Origin: Collimonas silvisoli
Lineage (GTDB): Bacteria > Pseudomonadota > Gammaproteobacteria > Burkholderiales > Burkholderiaceae_D
NCBI RefSeq assembly: GCF_018305005.1
Contig: NZ_JAGQEG010000009.1
Span: forward strand, 1 to 64,000
Reading direction: 5' to 3'
Length of the DNA stretch: 64,000 nucleotides
Made by a program: the position numbers and the translations under genes. Shown here one piece after another: positions 5,874 through 21,633 of this stretch (positions are counted from its first letter, which is position 1; each line of letters starts with the position of its first letter). The notes under the pieces are model-generated. The model searched no databases. It saw only the letters and a program-made list of their open reading frames with translations, and had not been told where the DNA came from.

Positions 5874-7982
5874 TTAGCTGACGCGCATGCCGGGTTCAGC
5901 GCCTGGCCACGGGTTGAGTACGTAGATGCCAGGATTGGTCTTGCCGTCGGCGGCCGAGGCGGCCAGGACCATGCCTTCCGAGATGCCAAATTTCATCTTG
6001 CGCGGCGCCAGGTTGGCTACCATCACCGTCAGCTTGCCGATCAACTCTTCCGGCTGGTAGGAAGATTTGATGCCGGAAAACACATTGCGCAAGCGGCCTT
6101 CGCCGACATCCAGGGTCAGCCGCAATAGTTTGTCGGAACCGTCGACATGCTCGCAATTGACGATTTTGGCGATACGCAAATCGACCTTTACGAAATCGTC
6201 GATCTTGATTTCGGCGGCCAGCGGTTCGATGGCGCCGGCGCTGCGGTCTTCTGCGTTTGCAACTTCGGTCGCCGCTGTCGTCGTCACTGTTGCTGCCGGT
6301 GCGTCGAACAAGGCATCCAGCATCTTCGGCTCGACCCGCGTCATCAGATGCGAGTAGGCGTTGATGCGATGACCGTCGGCCAGCGGCCGGGCGACGTCGG
6401 CCCATACCAGCGGCTGGATCTGCAGGAAACTTTCGACTTGGGCTACCAGCGCCGGCAACACCGGTTTCAGATAGATGGTCAAGATCCGGAACGCTTCCAG
6501 CAAGCGGCTGCAGACTTCATGCAGAGCCGCTTCCTTGCCTGGATCCTTGGCCAGTTCCCACGGCTTGTTGGCGTCGACATAAGCGTTGATGACATCGGCC
6601 TGTTCCATCACCGCACGCAACGCCTTGCCGTATTCGCGGCCGTCGTACAGCGCCTGGATATCACCGGCAACCGCACGCAGCTTGGCCAGGAACGGATCGC
6701 TCTCGGTGGCCCAGGCGGTGCTGAGCTTGCCGTCGAATTTCTTGGCGATGAAACCGGCGGCGCGGCTGGCGATGTTGATGTACTTGCCGATCAAGTCGGA
6801 GTTGACGCGGGCGACAAAATCTTCCGGATTGAAATCGATATCTTCTACCTTGGCGCTCAGCTTGGCCGCGATGTAATAGCGCATCCATTCCGGATTCATG
6901 CCGAGTTCCAGGTAGCGCAGCGGCGAAATGCCGGTGCCGCGCGATTTCGACATTTTTTCGCCGGAGACGGTCAGGAAGCCATGCACGAACACATTATTCG
7001 GCACCTTTTGACCGGAGAAATGCAGCATGGCCGGCCAGAACAGGGTGTGGAAATAAGTGATGTCCTTGCCGATGAAGTGATATTGCTCGGTCTTCGGATC
7101 GGCCATGAAGGCGTCGTAGTCGCGCCCGATTTTGCCGAAATAGTTTTTCAGCGAAGCCAGGTAGCCGACCGGGGCGTCCAGCCAGACATAGAAGTATTTG
7201 CCCGGCTCATCGGGAATCTCGATGCCGAAATAAGGCGCATCGCGGCTGATATCCCAATCGCCCATGCCGCCGTCGCTTTCCAGCCATTCCTTGGCCTTGT
7301 TGGCGACTTCCGATTGCAGCCGCGGCTTGCCGTCGGCATTGCCCAAGGCCCAGCCGCGCAGGAATTCCACGCATTGCGGATCGGACAGCTTGAAGAAAAA
7401 GTGTTCCGACGATTTCATCACCGGCGTCGCGCCGGTCAGCGTCGAGTAGGGATTTTTCAGGTCGGTAGGCGCATATACCGAGCTGCAGACTTCGCAGGAA
7501 TCGCCGTACTGGTCCTTGGCGCCGCATTTCGGGCATTCGCCCTTGATGTAGCGGTCCGGCAGGAACATGTTCTTGACCGGGTCGAAGAATTGCTCGACGG
7601 TCCTGGTCGAAATGAAGCCGGCCGCTTTCAGCTTGCGATAGATATCGCGCGACAGCTCGTGGTTTTCCGGGCCGTCGGTCGAATGCCAGTTATCGAAGGC
7701 GATATGAAAGCCGTCCAGGTATTGCTTGCGGCCGGCGGCGATCTGCGCCACGAATTCCTGTGGCGTGATGCCGGCTTTTTCGGCGGCGATCATGATCGGC
7801 GCGCCGTGGGCGTCGTCGGCGCCGACGAAATTGACTTCATGGCCCTGCATTCGCTGGAACCGCACCCAGATGTCGGCCTGGATATATTCCATGATGTGGC
7901 CGATGTGAAACGCTGCGTTGGCGTAGGGCAGGGCGGTAGTGACGAATAATTGGCGGGGAGTTGAAGTCAAAGTGATGCTCAT
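5874..7982 (-). CDS. metG: Methionyl-tRNA synthetase
   Basis: Charges tRNA-Met and initiator tRNA with methionine. The 702-residue protein is the long dimeric form. The HIGH motif lies in [11 protein letters not shown] near residue 23. The zinc-binding knuckle has [17 protein letters not shown] near 145-165, KMSKS is in GEKMSKSRG near 340, and a C-terminal tRNA-binding EMAP-like domain starts near 600 ([14 protein letters not shown]). It is transcribed divergently from the apbC/mrp gene across a 246-base spacer, an arrangement common in proteobacteria. A GNAT gene follows closely downstream. Confidence 0.97.
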
Positions 7983-12655: not shown

Positions 12656-14104
12656 TTAAATCTCATCCATCCGCAACCGTCCCAGGCTCGCCGCCAGTCT
12701 TAGTCTTGCAGTTTGCCAATTGCTCAGCGCAAGAATGCGCTGCTGCTGTGCAGAAGCCAGGTCGCTTTGCGCTTTCAGCAGTTCCAGGATAGTGCCGACC
12801 CCCGCCTTATAACGTCCTTGCGCCACATCGAAAGACTGTCTGGCGCTGTGCAGCAGGATGTCGGTGGTGTTGAGATTTTCCGCTTCGGTGCGCAGCGCCT
12901 GCGCGCTTTTCCATACTTCCAGCATCACCTGCTGTTCGACATCGGCCAGATCGGCTTGCTTCGCCTCGGCCTGGGCCTGCGCGCCGCGTACCTTGTATGT
13001 GCGGCTGAAACCGTCGAACAGGGGAATAGTGATCTGCACCCCGATGCTGCGGCTGCTGATGGACTGTCTGGACGAGACCTGGTTGATCGGCGTGTCGTTG
13101 CGGTCGCCGCTGGCAAACAGCGACAGCGTCGGCCGTCCTTCGGCGCGGGCGGCGTCGACTTGCGCTTGCGCCGATTTCCATTGCGCTTGCGCGGCCAGGA
13201 TCTTCGGGTGGATGCGCACTGCGTCGGCGATCAGATCGTCGACCGCCTGCTGCAACAACGGCGCATCGTTGGCTTGCTGGCTCAGGTCGGCCAGGGTCAG
13301 CGGCGTGTTCGGCCGCCAGCCCATGGCGATGGCGAGGCTGCCGAGCGCGCTCTGCAGATCGCCGGCCGCTTGCGCCCGTTTCAGGCTCTCTTGGGCGTAG
13401 GAGGTCTGGGCTTGCAATTTATCGGCCAGGGTGCCGGCGCCGGCTTGGTATTTGGCTGCGCTGGCCTTGAAACTGCGTTCGGCCGCTTGTTCGGCATCCA
13501 TGGTCGCCGTCAGCATGGCTTGCGCCGCCTGGGCCTGGTAGAAACCTTGCACGGTATTGAGAAACACCGTTTGCAGCGTATCGTCCTGGGTGGCGTTGGC
13601 GGCGTTGAGCAATTGCCGCGCACTTTCCAGGTTGGCGGCGCGCAGGCCGAAATCGTACAGCACCCAGCTCAAGCTCAGATTGGCGGTGCTGCTGTCGGTC
13701 TTGAGCGACGAATCGGCTTGCGGAAAGTCGGGATAGGTGGTGCGGCTATGGCCTTTGCTTCTGCTGCCGCTGGCGTTCAGACTGGGCAAATAGGCGGCGC
13801 GGCTGACACCCACCGCCGCGGCCTGCACCTTGACATTGGCCCAGGCCTGGCGCGTCTGCGGATTGCGGCATAGTGCGCGCTCGACGGCGTCGAGCAGGGT
13901 CAGCGGGCTAGGTAACTGCGCGCTGAAGCCACAGCTGGTGCTGCCGGCGACGGCGGCGCTTGCCGGCGTGCCGGAAATCTCATTCGCGGTGCGCAGAGGA
14001 TCGGCCCAGATGGCGTCCGCATGGCTCGGCGCAGAGACCATCAACGTCAGCGCCAGCATTGACCCTAGCGCTGGATGCAAGGCGCGTTTTACCGAAACTG
14101 TCAT
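12656..14104 (-). CDS. TolC-family outer membrane channel of the peptide exporter
   Basis: Outer membrane efflux/secretion duct that completes a type I secretion machine. The 482-residue protein has a signal peptide (LALTLMVSAPSHADA, cleavage near residue 31). Two TolC/OEP repeats follow, with long helical stretches rich in Ala, Gln and Leu. Typical motifs are LSWVLYDFGLR near 150, LPSLNASGSRS near 105, and IPLFDGFSRTYKVRGAQAQ near 360-380. The start overlaps the stop of the ABC exporter by 4 bases (ATGA), so translation is coupled. It is the last gene of the locus that starts with the double-glycine peptide at 17773. Confidence 0.88.
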   Translation of the reverse strand: MTVSVKRALHPALGSMLALTLMVSAPSHADAIWADPLRTANEISGTPASAAVAGSTSCGFSAQLPSPLTLLDAVERALCRNPQTRQAWANVKVQAAAVGVSRAAYLPSLNASGSRSKGHSRTTYPDFPQADSSLKTDSSTANLSLSWVLYDFGLRAANLESARQLLNAANATQDDTLQTVFLNTVQGFYQAQAAQAMLTATMDAEQAAERSFKASAAKYQAGAGTLADKLQAQTSYAQESLKRAQAAGDLQSALGSLAIAMGWRPNTPLTLADLSQQANDAPLLQQAVDDLIADAVRIHPKILAAQAQWKSAQAQVDAARAEGRPTLSLFASGDRNDTPINQVSSRQSISSRSIGVQITIPLFDGFSRTYKVRGAQAQAEAKQADLADVEQQVMLEVWKSAQALRTEAENLNTTDILLHSARQSFDVAQGRYKAGVGTILELLKAQSDLASAQQQRILALSNWQTARLRLAASLGRLRMDEI

Positions 14105-16251
14105 GCCGTTGTTGCTTCTCTCTGCGCATCGGCATCCTGCGCCGGCAACAACCGATCATCGATCACCTTGCCGCCCGCCAGGACGATGGCGCGCTCGGCG
14201 CTGTTGATGGTCTCGGGGCGATGGGCGACGATCACACGGGTGATGTTGATGGATTGGATGGCGGCATTGACCAGGTGCTCGCGTTCGATGTCGAGATGGC
14301 TGGTGGCTTCATCGAGAAACAGAATGGTCGGTTTCTTGTAGAGTGCACGGGCCAGCAGCACCCGTTGCTTCTGGCCGCCCGAGAGGATGGTGCCCATGTC
14401 GCCGACCAGCGTGTTGTAGCCCATCGGCATGCGCGTAATATCCTGATGGATCGCCGCCAGCCGGGCGCATTCGGCGATCCAGGCGTGATCGGCCTGCGGA
14501 TCGAAGAAACTGATGTTGTCGGCCAGCGAGCCGGCGAACAGCACATCGTCCTGCAGCACGGTGCCGACCATCCGGCGCAGGGTATCGAGACCGACCTGGC
14601 TGACGCTCTGGCCGCCGATCAGCACTTCGCCTTCCGTTGGCGGCAAGATCCCCAGCAGGATATTGATCAGCGTGGTCTTGCCGCAGCCGGACGGGCCGAC
14701 GATGGCCACCGATGCGCCGGCGGCGATCTGGAAGGAGACATCGTCCAGCACATACGGCTCCTGCTCGGCGTAGCGGAAGCGCAAGCCGCGCACTTCCAGC
14801 GACGGCGTCAGCGCCGCATCGCGTTCATCCAGATTGCGGCCATGCGTGGTTTCCGGCGGCTGCAGCACGATATCGGCCAGCCGTTCGCCTTGCAATTGCA
14901 GCATCTTGAGTTCGACGAACTTGTCGATCAGGGAGCTGACGCGGCTGTCGAACTGCCCCTTGTAGGCATTGAAGGCCATCAAGACGCCGACCGTGAAATT
15001 GCCGTCCATGACCATCCTGGCGCCGAGCCAGATGACCAGGATATTTTCCAGGCCGAACAGCAAGCCGTTGAGCGCTTTGTAGAGCAGGCCCAGTTTCTGG
15101 GTGCGCAGATCGGCATTGATCTGGTCCACCAGCAAGCTCAGCCAGCTGGCGCGGCGCTCATCCTGGCGCTGGAACAGCTTGATGGTCTTGACGCCGCGGA
15201 TGGTTTCCAGGAAATGGGATTGCTGCTTGGCGGCGTGGATGATCTGCTCTTCGGTGGCGTGCCGCAAGGGCGCAAACCAGGCCCAGCGTCCCAGCCCGTA
15301 CAACAGCATGGCGCCGATGGCGATCCAGGCCAGCAGCGGGCTGTAGATGCACATCAATGCCAGCGTGACGATGGTCATCACGCCATCCAGGATCGCTTCC
15401 AGGAACGAGGTCGTCAGCGTGTGCTGGATGGTGCCGACCGAGCCGAAACGCGAGACCACGTCGCCCAGATGGCGCTTCTCAAAGTAGGCCACCGGCAGCC
15501 GTAGCAAGTGCGTAAAAACATTGGCCTGCCATTGCACATTCAAGGTCGTGCTCATATACATCAGGACCCAGCTGCGGACGATGTCCACCGCCTGTTGCAT
15601 CAGCATCAGCAGGCCGAAGCCCAGGGCCAGCGTGGTCAGCAAGTCGCGGCTGGCGGAGACCAGCACATTGTCGATCACCCATTGCAGGAAGAACGGGCTG
15701 ACCACCGCAAACACTTCCAGCGCCAGCGACAGCAGCAGGATCTGGCTGAAGGAGCGGTACAAGCCGGTGACGCGGCCCAGCAAGCCGCGCAGGCGCACCG
15801 TCTGTTTTTCTTCCGCTTTCTTGAAGCCGGGATGCGGCCACAGTTCGAGCGCCACGCCGGTGAAGGCTTTGGCGATTTCCTCCAGGGGCAGCTGGCGGAT
15901 GCCGAAGGCCGGATCGTGGATCGTCACCGAACGCGTGCCGACTTCCTGCAGCACCACGAAGTGATTCAGATTCCAGTGCAGGATGCAGGGCAGCTTGAGC
16001 TGCGCCAGATCCTCCAGATCGAGTTTCAGCGGACGCGTCGCCAGTTCCAGTTGATCGGCAATCGCGATCAGGTCGCGCAGGGTGGAACCCTTGAGCGAGA
16101 CCGGGAAGCGGCGTCGCAGCGTCGCCAGGTCGGTGCGGTAGCCGTAGTAGCCGGCCACCATGCCCAGGCAGGCGAGGCCGCATTCGGTGGCTTCGGTTTG
16201 CAGCATCAGCGGCAGGGTCGGCTGCAAGCCGAAGGAGAGTCGATTGCGCAT
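14101..16251 (-). CDS. C39-peptidase ABC exporter (bacteriocin/microcin type)
   Basis: Inner-membrane exporter that cuts a double-glycine leader from a precursor peptide and pumps the mature peptide out. I start it at 16251 (716 residues), 2 bases after the fusion-protein stop, rather than at 16296 inside that gene. The N-terminal C39 peptidase has the full catalytic set: Gln18 and Cys24 in LQTEATECGLACLG, His97 in NLNHFVVL and Asp113 in IHDPAFG. It should therefore be an active processing enzyme and not an inactive HlyB-like domain. A six-span membrane region (about 160-440) and an ATPase follow, with Walker A GPSGCGKTT near 515, LSGGQKQR and ILFLDEATSHLD near 630. It is flanked by HlyD- and TolC-type partners. 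Confidence 0.92.
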   Translation of the reverse strand: MRNRLSFGLQPTLPLMLQTEATECGLACLGMVAGYYGYRTDLATLRRRFPVSLKGSTLRDLIAIADQLELATRPLKLDLEDLAQLKLPCILHWNLNHFVVLQEVGTRSVTIHDPAFGIRQLPLEEIAKAFTGVALELWPHPGFKKAEEKQTVRLRGLLGRVTGLYRSFSQILLLSLALEVFAVVSPFFLQWVIDNVLVSASRDLLTTLALGFGLLMLMQQAVDIVRSWVLMYMSTTLNVQWQANVFTHLLRLPVAYFEKRHLGDVVSRFGSVGTIQHTLTTSFLEAILDGVMTIVTLALMCIYSPLLAWIAIGAMLLYGLGRWAWFAPLRHATEEQIIHAAKQQSHFLETIRGVKTIKLFQRQDERRASWLSLLVDQINADLRTQKLGLLYKALNGLLFGLENILVIWLGARMVMDGNFTVGVLMAFNAYKGQFDSRVSSLIDKFVELKMLQLQGERLADIVLQPPETTHGRNLDERDAALTPSLEVRGLRFRYAEQEPYVLDDVSFQIAAGASVAIVGPSGCGKTTLINILLGILPPTEGEVLIGGQSVSQVGLDTLRRMVGTVLQDDVLFAGSLADNISFFDPQADHAWIAECARLAAIHQDITRMPMGYNTLVGDMGTILSGGQKQRVLLARALYKKPTILFLDEATSHLDIEREHLVNAAIQSINITRVIVAHRPETINSAERAIVLAGGKVIDDRLLPAQDADAQREATTA

Positions 16252-16253
16252 GG

Positions 16254-17510
16254 TCAGAGCTTGCCGGTCAGGCTGTAGAGGGGGTCCAGCACCCATTCGT
16301 AGAGATGGAGTTTTTCTTGCTGGACATCGGCTTCCAGCAGCATGCCGGCTTGCAGCGCCTGCGGCTTGCCGTAGGCGGTGACTTGCTGCGACGCCAGCAG
16401 GACGTTGATGCGATACATCGGTTCGCTGTTGCTGCCGCCGGCCGGCGCGCCGATGGTGTTCAATTCATTGTTGGGCAGGGCGGTCTTTGCCACCGATTCC
16501 ACCACGCCCTTGTGGTGGCCGAATTTCTGGTAGGGATAGGCTTGATAGCGGATCAGCACCTGGTCGCCGGGGCGGATAAAGCCGATCGCCCGGCTCGGCG
16601 CATACAGTTCGGCGCGCAAGGCGGCGCCGGCCGGCACGATGCTGACCAGCGGCCGGTTGCCGTCGACCGCCTGGCCGGCGTCGGCAATCACCGCAGTGGC
16701 GACGCCGGCTTCCGGGGCGGTGATGACGATGCGGCGCTTGGCTTCGCTTTCGGTCAGTTCCTGGCCGGTGCTGGAAAGGCTGCGGTCAATCTGCGCCAGC
16801 TGGTTCTGCTGCTTCAAGGACAGCCCGCTCAGCTCGCTCCGCTGCGCCGACAAGTCGCGGCCGACGCTGATGTGGTCGCGCTCCAGGCTTTGCTGGCGGT
16901 TCTTCTGATCGAGCAGGTCTTCCTGCTTTTGCTGGAATTGTTCTTTGGAGATGTAGTCCTGCTGCAGCAAGCCTTGATAACGCTGCAGGGTTTCCTGGGC
17001 CAGCTTGACGCGGTCCTGCTGGCCGGCAATCTGCTTATCCAGCTTGGCCAGTTCATTGCCGAGGCCGGCAATTTTATTGTGCAGGCCGCTGCGTTCTTCC
17101 TGTTGCAACAAGCGGGTCTTTTGCATTTCGTCGCGCAGGCTGGCCTGGCGTTGCTCGACCTGGCCGCTGATGGCCGCCTGGATAGCCCCTAAAGTGCTGC
17201 TCTGGCGTTCGCTGGACAATACATACAACTCCTCTCCAGCTTGCACCGGCTGGCCTTCCTTCACATGCTGCTCGACGACGACGCCGGCTTGCGGCGCATA
17301 GACCTTGATCAGGCCGGTATCGGGCAGCAGCTGGCCGCTGACGGTGCTGTGCTTGGTGTAGCTGCCCCAGGCCAGGAAGGCGCAGACGATCGCCGCCAGC
17401 GCCACGGCGAAGGTGGTCAGGAAGGTGAATGTAATCGGGCGGATCAGGATGATGTCGCCTAGCCATTTGGTTTGCTGCGCGGCGAGCGCTTGATCGCGGA
17501 ATAAACTCAT
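16254..17510 (-). CDS. HlyD/CvaA-type membrane fusion protein
   Basis: Periplasmic adaptor linking the ABC exporter to the outer membrane channel. I start it at 17510 (MSLFRDQAL, 418 residues), removing nine upstream residues with no support. One membrane span near residues 22-45 (FLTTFAVALAAIVCAFLAW) is followed by a biotinyl-lipoyl-like segment (VYAPQAGVVVEQHVKEGQPV, near 62-81), a long coiled coil (about 100-240) and the HlyD C-terminal domain with APSRAIGFIRPGDQVLIRYQ-type sequence near 300. A terminator hairpin lies just upstream, between it and the precursor peptide. A broken paralogue of its first 50 codons survives at 19.4-19.6 kb. Confidence 0.9.
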   Translation of the reverse strand: MSLFRDQALAAQQTKWLGDIILIRPITFTFLTTFAVALAAIVCAFLAWGSYTKHSTVSGQLLPDTGLIKVYAPQAGVVVEQHVKEGQPVQAGEELYVLSSERQSSTLGAIQAAISGQVEQRQASLRDEMQKTRLLQQEERSGLHNKIAGLGNELAKLDKQIAGQQDRVKLAQETLQRYQGLLQQDYISKEQFQQKQEDLLDQKNRQQSLERDHISVGRDLSAQRSELSGLSLKQQNQLAQIDRSLSSTGQELTESEAKRRIVITAPEAGVATAVIADAGQAVDGNRPLVSIVPAGAALRAELYAPSRAIGFIRPGDQVLIRYQAYPYQKFGHHKGVVESVAKTALPNNELNTIGAPAGGSNSEPMYRINVLLASQQVTAYGKPQALQAGMLLEADVQQEKLHLYEWVLDPLYSLTGKL

Positions 17511-17584: not shown

Positions 17585-17773
17585 TTAGCCGGGCATTGGC
17601 CCAGGTGGAGTTGGCTTAGGTGGGGTTGGCTTAGGTGGGGTTGGCACAGATGGGGTTGGTGACCTCGTATAACTGTTGGAATAACGGGTAAAACAGCACC
17701 ATCGGAGCAGGCAACAAAAAAAGCCGCCGCTTACTTCCTCAGTTTCCTTCGTAGACAACTGTCTAATAGCCAT
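17585..17773 (-). CDS. Double-glycine leader peptide, Cys- and Pro-rich (microcin/bacteriocin-like precursor)
   Basis: A 62-residue precursor. AAAGGAG sits 5 bases before the ATG. The leader MAIRQLSTKETEEVSGG matches the C39-recognised pattern (Leu, Glu and Val at the usual spacing before Gly-Gly), predicting cleavage after residue 17. The 45-residue core starts with a hydrophobic cluster holding two Cys pairs (FFCCLLRWCCF). It continues with a basic, Ser/Tyr stretch and ends with a proline-rich tail of PTPPK repeats encoded by a 15-bp tandem repeat. It lies directly upstream of the exporter set, which is its likely export route. Function (antibacterial peptide, signal or other) is inferred. 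No immunity gene is obvious beside it. Confidence 0.75.
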   Translation of the reverse strand: MAIRQLSTKETEEVSGGFFCCLLRWCCFTRYSNSYTRSPTPSVPTPPKPTPPKPTPPGPMPG

Positions 17774-19163: not shown

Positions 19164-19582
19164 AATCAGTCCTGTTTGCCGGCATGAATTGTCAGCCCTT
19201 GCTCCAGTAATCCGGCTGCGCATAAATCGATTTCAAGCGATCGATAAAGAAGCGGACCTTGGCCGGCAAATGGCGTTGCTGCGGATAGACTGCCATGATG
19301 TCGTAATGCGGCAGCGCAAATTCGTCCAGCACCGTCAGCAGTTCACCGTCATTGCAATCCAGATTGCCGGCTTGCTGGAAATACCAGCCGTGCTGCTGGC
19401 CGCTGACGGTGCTGTGGTTGGTGTAGCTGCCCCAGGCCAGAAAGGCGCAGATGATCGTCGCCAGCGCCAGCGCCACCGCGAATGTGATTAGGAAGGTGAA
19501 GGAAAGCGGGCGGATCAGGACAATGTCGCCAAGCCATTTTACCCGTTGCGAGATCAGTGCTTGTTCGCGAAATAACCCTCAT
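19164..19582 (-). pseudogene. Chimeric remnant: HlyD-like 5' end fused to a duplicated LysR 3' end
   Basis: From 19582 down to about 19395 the sequence is a diverged copy of the first roughly 55 codons of the HlyD gene at 17510, including WLGDIVLIRP and AFLAWGSYTNHSTVSGQ. It carries one extra G near the start that breaks the ATG frame. At a shared GCTGCTGGCCGC micro-homology it switches to the last part of the LysR gene at 20725. That part lacks 27 bases and 84 bases relative to the intact gene, both in frame, then matches it perfectly to the stop except for a 2-base difference beyond the coding end. It is a decayed exporter component, not a working gene. Confidence 0.85.
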
Positions 19583-19730
19583 ATTATTTTTTTAGTTAGG
19601 AACTTGCCATGCCAGGAGGACGGGATCTCTATTTGCGTGCAGTACCAAATTTCACGAAAAGCTGGGGGGCTTTGAGGGGACTGAAAAACTAGTGTCCGGG
19701 TTTTAGATTTACCAGGACACTTTATGCCTA
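19583..19730. other. Spacer between hidden peptide gene and HlyD remnant
   Basis: No gene is seen. GTGTCC at about 19692 and GGACAC at about 19715 form a 6-bp inverted repeat 17 bases apart and may be a small termination or insertion-end remnant. Confidence 0.3.
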
Positions 19731-19877
19731 CTACAAAAGGTACTTTGAATAGCACATTCCAGAGTAGTCATCGTAAAGTTCTGGTCTTCTGTCAATCACG
19801 TTCCAAGACATTCGCCCCCCTTCCCATTTCATGGCCCCGCTCACCAAGGCAATTTCTTTTTCTGACAAGACTTGCAT
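19731..19877 (-). CDS. Hidden 48-aa leader peptide of the double-glycine type (microcin-like precursor)
   Basis: A reading frame of 48 codons plus TAG, too short for routine gene calling. AGGAGAAGG lies 4-5 bases before the ATG at 19877, an excellent ribosome-binding site. The first 15 residues MQVLSEKEIALVSGA match the C39 leader pattern closely (Leu-Ser-x-x-Glu-Ile-x-x-Val-Ser-Gly-Ala) and closely resemble the leader of the peptide at 17773. The predicted 33-residue core begins MKWEGGRMSWNVIDRR, continues with an acidic/Tyr patch (ELYDDYSG) and has one Cys near the end. It lies 48 bases downstream of an unknown exported-protein gene and upstream of the broken HlyD copy. It may now depend on the intact exporter at 14.1-17.5 kb. 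Confidence 0.72.
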   Translation of the reverse strand: MQVLSEKEIALVSGAMKWEGGRMSWNVIDRRPELYDDYSGMCYSKYLL

Positions 19878-19925
19878 TTTTCCTTCTCCTGAAAAAAATC
19901 TCATTTTTATACCTCTTAGAAAGAA

Positions 19926-20417
19926 TTAACATCCGAATTGATCGATAGATTCAATTATTTTAGAAACATCCTCCTTTCTCATGATGTCTGCCTTCATCGT
20001 AGTAACTTTTCCGTCTGAGGCCTTCATTTGCTTCTTTACCTCTTTAAACTTCGCGCTATTTAATTGTTTGAATGCGCAAGCTGAGTACAATTTTGCTGCT
20101 GTCGTGCTATCACCTTTGTCATAAATTCTCCAAAAGCGCGCCTCAGCATTATCTGAGCTCAATATTTTTTTATAGGCCGATTCACCTGTAGAAATATGGC
20201 CAACGAATCCAATATTACCCAATGCAAACATCTCGGTTTTTGCTAATGTCGTGTCATCGCTAGTTGATACGTCCGTTACAGTCTGCTCTGCAGCTTGTCC
20301 AGTGCAAAAGAAAGACGGCAAAATAGAAAGAGCCGAGAAAAGAAAAAACGATATTATTTTTTTTAAAGATAGATGCGCTGTTGCAACTTGGCATGGACTT
20401 TGAAAAATTATTTGCAT
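19926..20417 (-). CDS. Unknown exported protein beside the hidden leader peptide
   Basis: Reading frame open from 20552. I prefer the ATG at 20417 (163 residues), but a start further in is also possible. A hydrophobic segment (IISFFLFSALSILPSFFCTG) ending in QAA looks like a signal peptide or membrane anchor. The mature part is about 115 residues, Lys- and Ser-rich, with ALGNIGFVGHISTGESAY and two Cys. Base composition is much lower in GC than neighbours, which suggests transfer. The hidden peptide gene starts 48 bases beyond its stop on the same strand, so an immunity or accessory role is possible but unproven. Confidence 0.55.
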   Translation of the reverse strand: MQIIFQSPCQVATAHLSLKKIISFFLFSALSILPSFFCTGQAAEQTVTDVSTSDDTTLAKTEMFALGNIGFVGHISTGESAYKKILSSDNAEARFWRIYDKGDSTTAAKLYSACAFKQLNSAKFKEVKKQMKASDGKVTTMKADIMRKEDVSKIIESIDQFGC

Positions 20418-20610
20418 AAGTTTCACTCGCAGAGAATTTATATTGATATTTTTGTTTTTGAGAAAATAAATATCTTTTGTTTTTTTATAATGTATTGCTT
20501 CGTAAGGCTCCATCCACCAATGTCGCCAGAGCTTCTTGAATGTTGCAAACATTGTATTATTTGAGTAGTTCTTGCAAGCTCAACTACGACAATTTCTTAA
20601 CTTTAAGAAA

Positions 20611-20685
20611 ATGCTGACTTATCCGCTGGCTGGCGGTGAGCTTTCCAGCATCGATCTCAATTTCGCGTATCAGCTGTCGTTCTGA
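20611..20685 (+). pseudogene. Possible C-terminal fragment of an outer membrane beta-barrel protein
   Basis: A short plus-strand reading ends in SSIDLNFAYQLSF and a stop. Alternating hydrophobic residues and a terminal Phe are the hallmark of the last beta-strand recognised by the BAM complex. Nothing upstream extends it into a full barrel, so it is at most a remnant. It sits at the edge of the duplicated LysR block. Confidence 0.3.
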
Positions 20686-20694
20686 GCGTCCCCG

Positions 20695-20880
20695 AATCAG
20701 TCCTGTTTGCCGGCATGAATTGTCTCAGCCCTTGCTCCAGTAATCCGGCTGCGCATAAATCGATTTCAAGCGATCGATAAAGAAGCGGACCTTGGCCGGC
20801 AAATGGCGTTGCTGCGGATAGACTGCCATGATGTCGTAATGCGGCAGCGCAAATTCGTCCAGCACCGTCAGCAGTTCACC
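20695..20880 (-). repeat. Parent copy of the duplicated LysR 3' block
   Basis: Bases 20695-20880 match 19164-19347 without substitution, apart from a TC insertion just outside the stop codon. This is the last stretch of the LysR gene plus 30 bases beyond it, and the perfect identity shows a recent duplication. Confidence 0.9.
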
Positions 20881-21633
20881 CGAGGCCAGCTGCGATTCGA
20901 TTTCCCAGGTCGAGCGCCAGCCCAGACCCAGGCCCTCGCTGACCCAGCGGTGCAGCAATTCGCCGTCATTGCAATCCAGATTGCCGGCGGTCTTGATGAT
21001 CACCGGCTTGCCGCCTTGCTGGAAATACCAGCCGCGCTGCTGGCCGCCTTGCAAATTAAAGGAAAGGCAATTGTGGCTGGCGATATCTTCCAGCGTCTTG
21101 GGGATGCCGTGGCGATGAAAATATTCCGGCGTGCCGCACACCACGCGGCGGTTGCCGGCCAGTTTGACCGCGACGAAATTCGGATCGATGGCGCCGCCGA
21201 TACGGATGCTGATGTCGTAGCCTTCACGCACCAGGTCGACCACGCGGTCGGTCAGGTTGAATGAGATCTGTACTTCCGGATTGCTGGCGATGAAAGCCGG
21301 CGCATGCGGCGCCACATGCTTGCGGCCGAATGCGGCTGGCGCCGATACCACCAAGTGGCCGGTGGCCTTGTGCCGGCCTTCCGAGATAATCTTCTCGGCG
21401 ATATCGAGCTCGCTCAGCAGCTTGCGGCAATGATCGAGGAATACCGTGCCTTGTTCGGTCAATGTCAGATGACGGGTGGTGCGGTGCATCAGCTTGGTGC
21501 CCAGCCGTTTCTCCAGCGCATCTATGCGTCGTCCCAGCATCACGGGGGTGATGTTCTGCTCCAGCGCCGCGCTTGCCAGGCTGCCTTTCTCCACCACGCT
21601 GACGAAGGCTTCAATCTGTTTGAGCTTGTCCAT
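20725..21633 (-). CDS. LysR-family regulator, divergent from gcl
   Basis: A 302-residue LysR-type regulator. The winged-helix DNA-binding domain occupies residues 1-60 (DKLKQIEAFVSVVEKGSLASAA), followed by an effector domain with the CrgA/TrpI-like pattern (HLVVSAPAAFGRKHVAP near 92). It is divergent from the glyoxylate operon across 253 bases that contain a 25-bp operator-like palindrome, so it probably controls gcl-hyi-glxR-ttuD-pyk in response to glyoxylate or a purine breakdown product. The effector is inferred. Its 3' end was recently copied to 19.2 kb. Confidence 0.88.
   Translation of the reverse strand: MDKLKQIEAFVSVVEKGSLASAALEQNITPVMLGRRIDALEKRLGTKLMHRTTRHLTLTEQGTVFLDHCRKLLSELDIAEKIISEGRHKATGHLVVSAPAAFGRKHVAPHAPAFIASNPEVQISFNLTDRVVDLVREGYDISIRIGGAIDPNFVAVKLAGNRRVVCGTPEYFHRHGIPKTLEDIASHNCLSFNLQGGQQRGWYFQQGGKPVIIKTAGNLDCNDGELLHRWVSEGLGLGWRSTWEIESQLASGELLTVLDEFALPHYDIMAVYPQQRHLPAKVRFFIDRLKSIYAQPDYWSKG

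Follow-up and report, generated by a model that had tools for sequence, protein, structure and literature searches.

A probable microcin I47-type immunity and precursor gene pair beside an exporter remnant in Collimonas silvisoli

Genes and features of the locus

The window, by which we mean the whole stretch of 64,000 nucleotides of Collimonas silvisoli DNA analyzed here, carries an intact gene of the MchS3 family and, downstream of it, a 48-residue frame that we call pepB, both lying between an intact lysR gene and a remnant of an hlyD gene (Table 1). The upstream gene matches the MchS3 family model of NCBIfam with 104 bits, or 105.4 bits in a second scan, against a curated cut-off of 100, and its stop codon lies 48 nt before the ATG of pepB on the same strand. 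Pfam yielded nothing above threshold for either gene.

Table 1. Features of the locus and of the resident exporter
Feature	Position	Strand	Basis or remark
TolC-type outer membrane protein, resident exporter	12656..14104	-	Pfam OEP 3.6e-57
Intact C39 peptidase/ABC exporter	14101..16296	-	Pfam Peptidase_C39 7.1e-36, ABC_membrane, ABC_tran
Intact HlyD adaptor, resident exporter	16254..17510	-	Pfam, NCBIfam
pepA, resident double-glycine peptide	17585..17773	-	Cys- and Pro-rich, core unlike pepB
Duplicated, internally deleted lysR 3' end	19164..19403	-	joined to hlyD remnant
hlyD remnant (lost exporter adaptor)	19392..19585	-	~60 codons, frame shifted just after start codon
Hairpin, possible transcription terminator	19691..19721	-	starts 9 nt past pepB stop codon; followed by AGTTTTT
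pepB, microcin I47-type precursor peptide	19731..19877	-	48 aa; ribosome-binding site, 15-residue leader, core homology to I47
pepB core	19734-19832	-	
pepB leader	19833-19877	-	
Ribosome-binding site of pepB, AGGAGAAGG	19882..19890	-	sequence read
MchS3 family protein (microcin I47 immunity family)	19926..20552	-	NCBIfam NF041432; 208 codons from first ATG
MchS3 conserved domain	19929-20246	-	Sec-type signal peptide ahead of domain, read by eye
Intact lysR	20725..21633	-	border of inserted patch

In the available text of two papers, immunity to microcin I47 is assigned to MchS3 and the precursor to mchS2, the two normally forming one operon (PMC7472721, PMC6795089), and the function named there is that of E. 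coli MchS3 only. Except in the G492 group, immunity genes are described as lying upstream of toxin genes (PMC11634061, available text), and in all seven loci that we measured, the window included, the immunity gene lies 10-50 nt upstream of the precursor on the same strand. Relatives of MchS3 have a hydrophobic N-terminus, judged by eye to be a Sec signal, and two cysteines that are invariant in 14 of 14 aligned rows. A confident AlphaFold2 model of the mature window protein (mean pLDDT 83.3, pTM 0.78) is helical with one hairpin, and we infer that the protein would be a soluble periplasmic immunity protein, whereas the accessible part of one paper describes inner-membrane proteins with a putative transmembrane region (PMC6795089). 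A fold search with the model gave no match at E <= 0.001 (best Prp38-like, E 0.025, 8% identity), and the best hits of PDB sequence searches had E-values of 0.24 and 0.45. The predicted fold is nearest to that of the spliceosomal protein Prp38, with a TM-score by query of up to 0.74, but not significantly so.

The pepB frame runs from ATG 19877 to a stop codon at 19731-19733, and its 48 residues read MQVLSEKEIALVSGAMKWEGGRMSWNVIDRRPELYDDYSGMCYSKYLL. They comprise a 15-residue leader of the double-glycine type, MQVLSEKEIALVSGA, which is a broad feature of class II microcins and here ends in SGA (GA at the cleavage site), and a predicted 33-residue core product, MKWEGGRMSWNVIDRRPELYDDYSGMCYSKYLL. 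The frame, the leader and the ribosome-binding site, as well as the distance of 148 bases to the HlyD remnant, all described in a first-pass annotation of this DNA, are present in the sequence; that annotation gave no strand, and every element lies on the minus strand, the plus reading of 19731-19877 having two stops. An alternative in-frame start at ATG 19904 would give 57 aa (nine extra residues), but the 48-residue start is favored because of the ribosome-binding site and because the leader has 15 residues in six relatives, for which the start codons were picked by the analyst and of which two (L059, L063) also have an ATG 2-3 codons earlier. The only matches to the leader motif in the window are pepA and pepB, with none in 30 simulated 64-kb controls, the motif having been written post hoc, after both peptides were seen. 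The leader of pepB is broadly like that of pepA, if not closely so as first proposed, and the cores of the two do differ, as had been noted.

Neither a stop nor a frameshift interrupts the 48 codons, and the leader and ribosome-binding site are intact. Compared with its relatives, pepB has a core shortened in the middle by a few residues, in frame, and this, with the kept leader length, suggests coding constraint after divergence. The C-terminus is CYSKYLL, where intact relatives continue, most of them with WxPGTPSSxMYPxG; the C-terminal part of full-length I47 (WxPGTPSxxMYPGG and on) is thus missing, and at 48 aa pepB is the shortest of the set, intact relatives having 67-96 aa. Read from the sequence, pepB has no serine-rich tail, and it therefore lacks a feature of class IIb microcins.

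The hairpin beyond the pepB stop codon has a folding energy of -13.9 kcal/mol (z -2.9). A consensus terminator scan listed no terminator there, probably because its loop limit is 8 and the loop here is 9. We had also considered whether the palindrome represents the collapsed ends of an insertion element, and dropped this: its pattern has no other copy in the own genome, and a hairpin with AGTTTTT behind it is more simply explained as a putative terminator. Three promoter-like sites were found at the locus, no excess over shuffles (mean 2.3).

Likeness to microcin I47 and relatives in other genomes

A profile of five relatives, with the window excluded, ranked pepB first among the 1597 stop-to-stop frames of the window (E 2.5e-8; next 1.7), and the same profile still found the pepB core without its leader (E 7.9e-4; next 1.9). 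None of 5000 shuffled pepB cores scored as high, the best shuffle coming within 2.4 bits (15.2 vs 17.6), and the core-only match is a modest one. Homology to the I47 core, in the region that reads NVIDLRGKDMGTYIDANGTCW in E. coli, is present in pepB, and the relatives have in common a core of the form NV[ILV]DxRG...[YW]IDA...CW. In a six-row alignment (A3) from which E. coli was left out and in which two near-identical Serratia rows were included, 11 columns are invariant, eight of them in the core.

As in microcin I47 itself (mchS3/mchS2, or mciI/mciA, of the E. coli MccH47 island), the immunity gene here lies upstream and the precursor close downstream on the same strand, the leader is a 15-residue one of the double-glycine type and the core has the motif NV[ILV]DxR ... 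C. The window pair differs in that pepB has 48 aa and not 78 (L096), GA and not GG at the cleavage site, and neither the CWAPGTPSIIMYPGG stretch nor a Ser-rich tail; nor does the pair lie beside mchC/mchD/mchEF, and its host belongs to the Burkholderiales family that holds Herbaspirillum. The pair of Herbaspirillum sp. YR522 (L059), whose peptide has a leader ending in AGS and the core GRLSDNVLDIRG...MCWSPY, is similar in its gene order and in having no Ser-rich tail, but that peptide is 67-70 aa long with the full middle of the core kept; the two MchS3 proteins are 32% identical over 141 residues, and no HlyD match was found in the YR522 locus stretches examined. The Serratia, Pantoea and Erwinia peptides (L063, L066, L056/L058, L069, L070) likewise have the immunity-precursor order and the core, L066 also having a C39 exporter and an MchE-like adaptor (72% identity over 424 aa to that of E. 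coli) next to the pair, but the intact ones have 67-96 aa and L070 is frameshifted. With the class IIb siderophore microcins (H47, M, E492), the pair has in common the double-glycine leader, a predicted C39-type export and immunity pairing, but not the Ser-rich C-terminus, and the canonical Ser-rich tail is, by eye, also missing from the Serratia, Pantoea and Herbaspirillum peptides. Searches of the own genome for mchC or an HlyC-type (mchD-type) acyltransferase, run without a positive control, gave no matches.

We call the family microcin I47-type on the strength of an E. coli frame, L096:5962-6198 (MREISDHMLDFVKGGMNLNGLPSSTNVIDLRGKDMGTYIDANGTCWAPGTPSIIMYPGGSGPSYSMSSSTSSVNSGTS, 78 aa), whose place and length fit the published mchS2, given as 77 aa in the available text (PMC7472721). 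In E. coli ACN002 and MEI005, the annotation of the stretch comprises mchB, mchF, mchI and mchS3 as well as an HlyD protein and a toxin-activating acyltransferase, and in ACN002 the precursor starts 16 nt after mchS3. In both RefSeq E. coli genomes read (L096:5962-6198, L097), the I47 precursor is unannotated although the adjoining mchS3 is annotated. When 5426 E. coli genomes were searched with the S. proteamaculans peptide DNA, 163 matched (E limit 10), and the best 20 of these 163 matches all had E 8e-15; a search of E. coli with the S. bockelmannii MchS3-peptide DNA found nothing.

The possibility raised in the first-pass annotation that the peptide has no homologues with a conserved leader or core falls away, given the homologues in Herbaspirillum, Serratia, Pantoea, Erwinia and E. 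coli, while conservation among the host's nearer relatives, where it had suggested looking, is thin. MchS3 occurs in seven of 195 family genomes, namely the own genome and six others that all belong to genus g27, taken as Herbaspirillum; the immunity/precursor pair was found in one of those six, and MchS3 was found in none of 11 genus relatives (11 of 14 covered). The 48-residue peptide alone matched in six of these 11, at noise level (E 0.015-0.09) and never beside an MchS3, and in 45 of the 195 family genomes at E <= 0.1 (best besides the own copy E 0.0115), where many of the matches sit in frames near 300 aa. One such match, in genome G185, is weak (E 0.030) and notable by place, not score, lying 26 bases after the MchS3 match; this locus (L010) is the same place and peptide as YR522 L059. 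An order-level search with A3, which matched 20 of 399 genomes, was set aside as noise, the matches besides the own one having E 5.1e-4 or worse and 16 of 19 sitting in frames of >280 aa. MchS3 was found in two of 398 phylum genomes (the own genome and G327, the latter below cut-off) and in one of 369 class genomes, the own one; no MchS3 relative turned up among 27 pattern matches in viral contigs, and no precursor was found in phage records.

Scanning named genomes turned up 14 MchS3 loci, from Herbaspirillum, Serratia, Erwinia, Pantoea and Enterobacter, and plasmids gave three records. Intact peptides lie downstream of MchS3 in Herbaspirillum YR522, Serratia proteamaculans CCUG 14510, S. bockelmannii and Pantoea coffeiphila, as well as on an S. 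marcescens plasmid, and a Raoultella plasmid has the same match. In a tree of MchS3 (24 rows), the window sits on long branches with weak support, so that no donor is named. Several further loci were observed in passing. Erwinia pyrifoliae pEP36 (L094 4001-4120) and Erwinia sp. Ejp617 pJE01 (L095 1733-1852) hold unannotated, relic-looking I47-type core fragments, NVVD[FL]RGKDMVSWIDAANTCW, without a full leader and close after a short signal-peptide-like frame. The g27 loci L005-L009 and L012 have MchS3 genes without a precursor, and in L005 and L009 a 386-codon frame upstream of MchS3 resembles, by eye, the end of a TonB-dependent receptor.

Taken together, the MchS3 loci number 26: 14 from the named scan, seven from the family scan (window included), three from plasmids (two of them alike), E. 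coli ACN002 and G327, with L012 and G327 below the family cut-off and most others never scored against it. A downstream precursor is intact in eight of the 26 (window, L056, L058, L059, L063, L066, L069, L096) and broken or a remnant in five (L057, L060, L061, L068, L070), and none was found in the flanks examined of the other 13. Among the broken ones, L070 is frameshifted, L061 has lost the core soon after the leader, and L057 is a remnant with KWEGGRES and no start; judged by eye, L060 is without the peptide of its relative L063, L068 consists of a start and a few codons, and the profile lists neither of these two at E <= 1. Across the 5426 E. coli genomes, mchS3 matched in 289 (with >=80% of the gene in 162) and the precursor region in 163 (>=80% in 143), these being totals and not paired by genome. 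Some E. coli records, among them Nissle 1917 (NZ_CP058217 3073973-3074104), retain no more of mchS3 than its initial ~130 bases. The distribution over the MchS3 loci is what one would expect if the toxin goes missing more easily than the immunity gene, and the window pair may be on that path.

The surrounding patch and the exporters of the genome

The patch that holds the pair (19590-20690) has 39.5% GC against 57.6% for the window. We compared 12 stretches, comprising nine exporter loci of sister genomes, two of the own genome and one of G185; the exporter adaptor occurs in nine of the 15 genomes of the genus, counting the own genome. In the six of nine sister loci with both flanks visible, the order is lysR, glycine-zipper gene, 100-aa gene, hlyD, C39 exporter, tolC, and the remaining three have no lysR within the stretch examined. 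From lysR to the glycine-zipper gene the distance is ~100-160 nt in all six sister loci showing both and 1.6 kb in the window. The six sister loci are without the patch, which in the window is AT-rich and looks foreign by its sequence. The intact lysR is 97.7-98.3% identical to the six sister copies, and the sister-like sequence downstream of it ends at 20695, with other DNA beyond.

At the other border, the hlyD remnant is 80.9% identical in DNA to the intact hlyD, with 78% protein identity over residues 2-60. The lysR duplicate matches the last part of the intact lysR at 98.9% over 186 columns, and this degraded copy then runs into the lysR-downstream sequence of the sister species; where it meets the hlyD remnant, both genes read GCGGCCAGC. 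The first-pass proposal that the peptide had lost its own exporter is supported, in that HlyD is cut to a stub of ~60 codons fused to the duplicated lysR end. In the simplest history, a patch encoding MchS3 and the peptide together with an exporter that is a sister of the resident one would have arrived beside lysR, after which the lysR end would have been duplicated and the exporter lost by deletion, presumably through recombination at the short repeat common to hlyD and the duplicated lysR end.

A peptidase-containing exporter, itself a feature of class II microcins, is present in the genome, the resident set at 12656-17510 being intact. Contig C133 has a second intact hlyD (87%), with an exporter frame of just 154 aa behind it, and contig C20 a third set, with ABC and TolC genes intact and an hlyD that is truncated where the contig stops. 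For pepB, the genome would offer at least one C39 exporter. The resident peptide pepA has no Pfam or NCBIfam match at E <= 1. Peptides of its type, which begin MAIQQLSxKEIDQVSGGC and are then Cys- and Pro-rich, precede hlyD in eight of 11 full-length hlyD loci of the same type in the genus (window 17585-17773, L098, L101, L102, L103, L105, L106, L107), with cores that vary between species; neither of the two of these eight that were scanned was above Pfam or NCBIfam cut-offs. L100 (on C133) has, before the hlyD at 7046, a double-glycine peptide that is rich in Gly and matches Microcin V below threshold (E 0.032); a 175-aa hydrophobic frame also precedes this intact hlyD, and the exporter gene is cut after its C39 part.

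Present state of the pair and its place in the microcin I47 family

We consider it probable that the MchS3 gene and pepB are an acquired immunity/precursor pair of the microcin I47 type, and that this accounts for the locus as a whole; their identity as such a pair is very likely. The first-pass description of a second exported microcin-like peptide was right about the double-glycine-type precursor and the loss of its own exporter, and missed the MchS3 gene upstream and the I47-like core. The two genes would be co-transcribed, with the transcript ending at the hairpin. MchS3 would reach the periplasm by its Sec signal and protect the cell against I47-type microcins, and that it still gives immunity is, on its sequence, quite likely. 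The pepB precursor, if made, would be cut after SGA by a C39 exporter, the nearest being the resident one (14101-17510), and the 33 residues that leave the cell would carry no siderophore tail; that this short peptide is still exported and active we can suggest only tentatively.

The present state of the pair may be that of an orphan immunity locus, in which exporter and peptide C-terminus were lost, MchS3 was kept against the I47-type microcins of neighbors, and the 48-residue frame is decaying. To this we give slightly less than an even chance: the peptide is short, its own exporter is gone, and the 26 MchS3 loci divide into eight with an intact precursor, five with a broken one and 13 with none found in the flanks, in company with the transposase genes between mchS3 and mchS2 of E. 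coli CA58 and the truncated mciA of K. pneumoniae RYC492, as given in the available text of two papers (PMC7472721, PMC11634061). A decaying frame sits less easily with 48 codons free of stops and frameshifts, an intact ribosome-binding site and leader, and an internal shortening that is in frame. Alternatively, pepB may be a second microcin that still works and leaves by the resident exporter, by analogy with the E. coli island, where H47 and I47 are encoded next to a single exporter. The resident C39, HlyD and TolC genes are all intact, and the lost adaptor was closely related to the resident HlyD (78% over residues 2-60); in the accessible part of one study, MccH47 and MccM have common export machinery, and among microcin-positive S. 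marcescens assemblies 74% have more than one microcin and 52.6% a single peptidase transporter (PMC13101503). Against borrowing, the C-terminal part is missing and the pepA and pepB leaders are only broadly alike, and we regard it as possible but somewhat doubtful. Orphan immunity locus and working microcin are two possible present states of the same pair.

Double-glycine leaders are also used by peptide pheromones, and pepB, with a short, tail-less core unlike that of E. coli I47, might instead be a signal or inducer and not an antibacterial; it is, however, paired with an immunity-family gene as in I47, and the frames of the patch show no sensor or regulator, which makes this quite improbable. 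That pepB is a chance open frame beside an unrelated gene is hardly credible: it is short and lies in AT-rich DNA, but the profile and shuffle tests and the conserved spacing and order speak against chance. A reading as a graspetide precursor was likewise dropped for want of support, the GRASP_targ_2 match having E 0.026 and 14.6 bits, with the cut-off at 32. To return to the acquired I47-type pair, we can also imagine that tail-less pairs of this type form an unmodified branch across Burkholderiales and Enterobacterales with soluble periplasmic immunity, and that in this genome a minimal core of 33 residues still leaves the cell through the exporter of another peptide and acts on relatives, although we think this extension rather unlikely.

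In the open-licence PMC literature, we found no paper tying I47 or MchS3 to the host's family and none on Herbaspirillum with a class II microcin. By its sequence, the locus is an I47-type pair outside Enterobacterales, with another in Herbaspirillum. Since the MchS3 loci suggest that precursors are lost and immunity kept, the presence of MchS3 by itself should not be taken to mean that a microcin is made. In the literature examined, microcin I47 and its known relatives belong to Enterobacteriaceae; the pair described here and that of Herbaspirillum would extend the family across two orders, and the relatives, with their tail-less and shortened cores, provide natural variants for locating the part of I47 that is responsible for killing.
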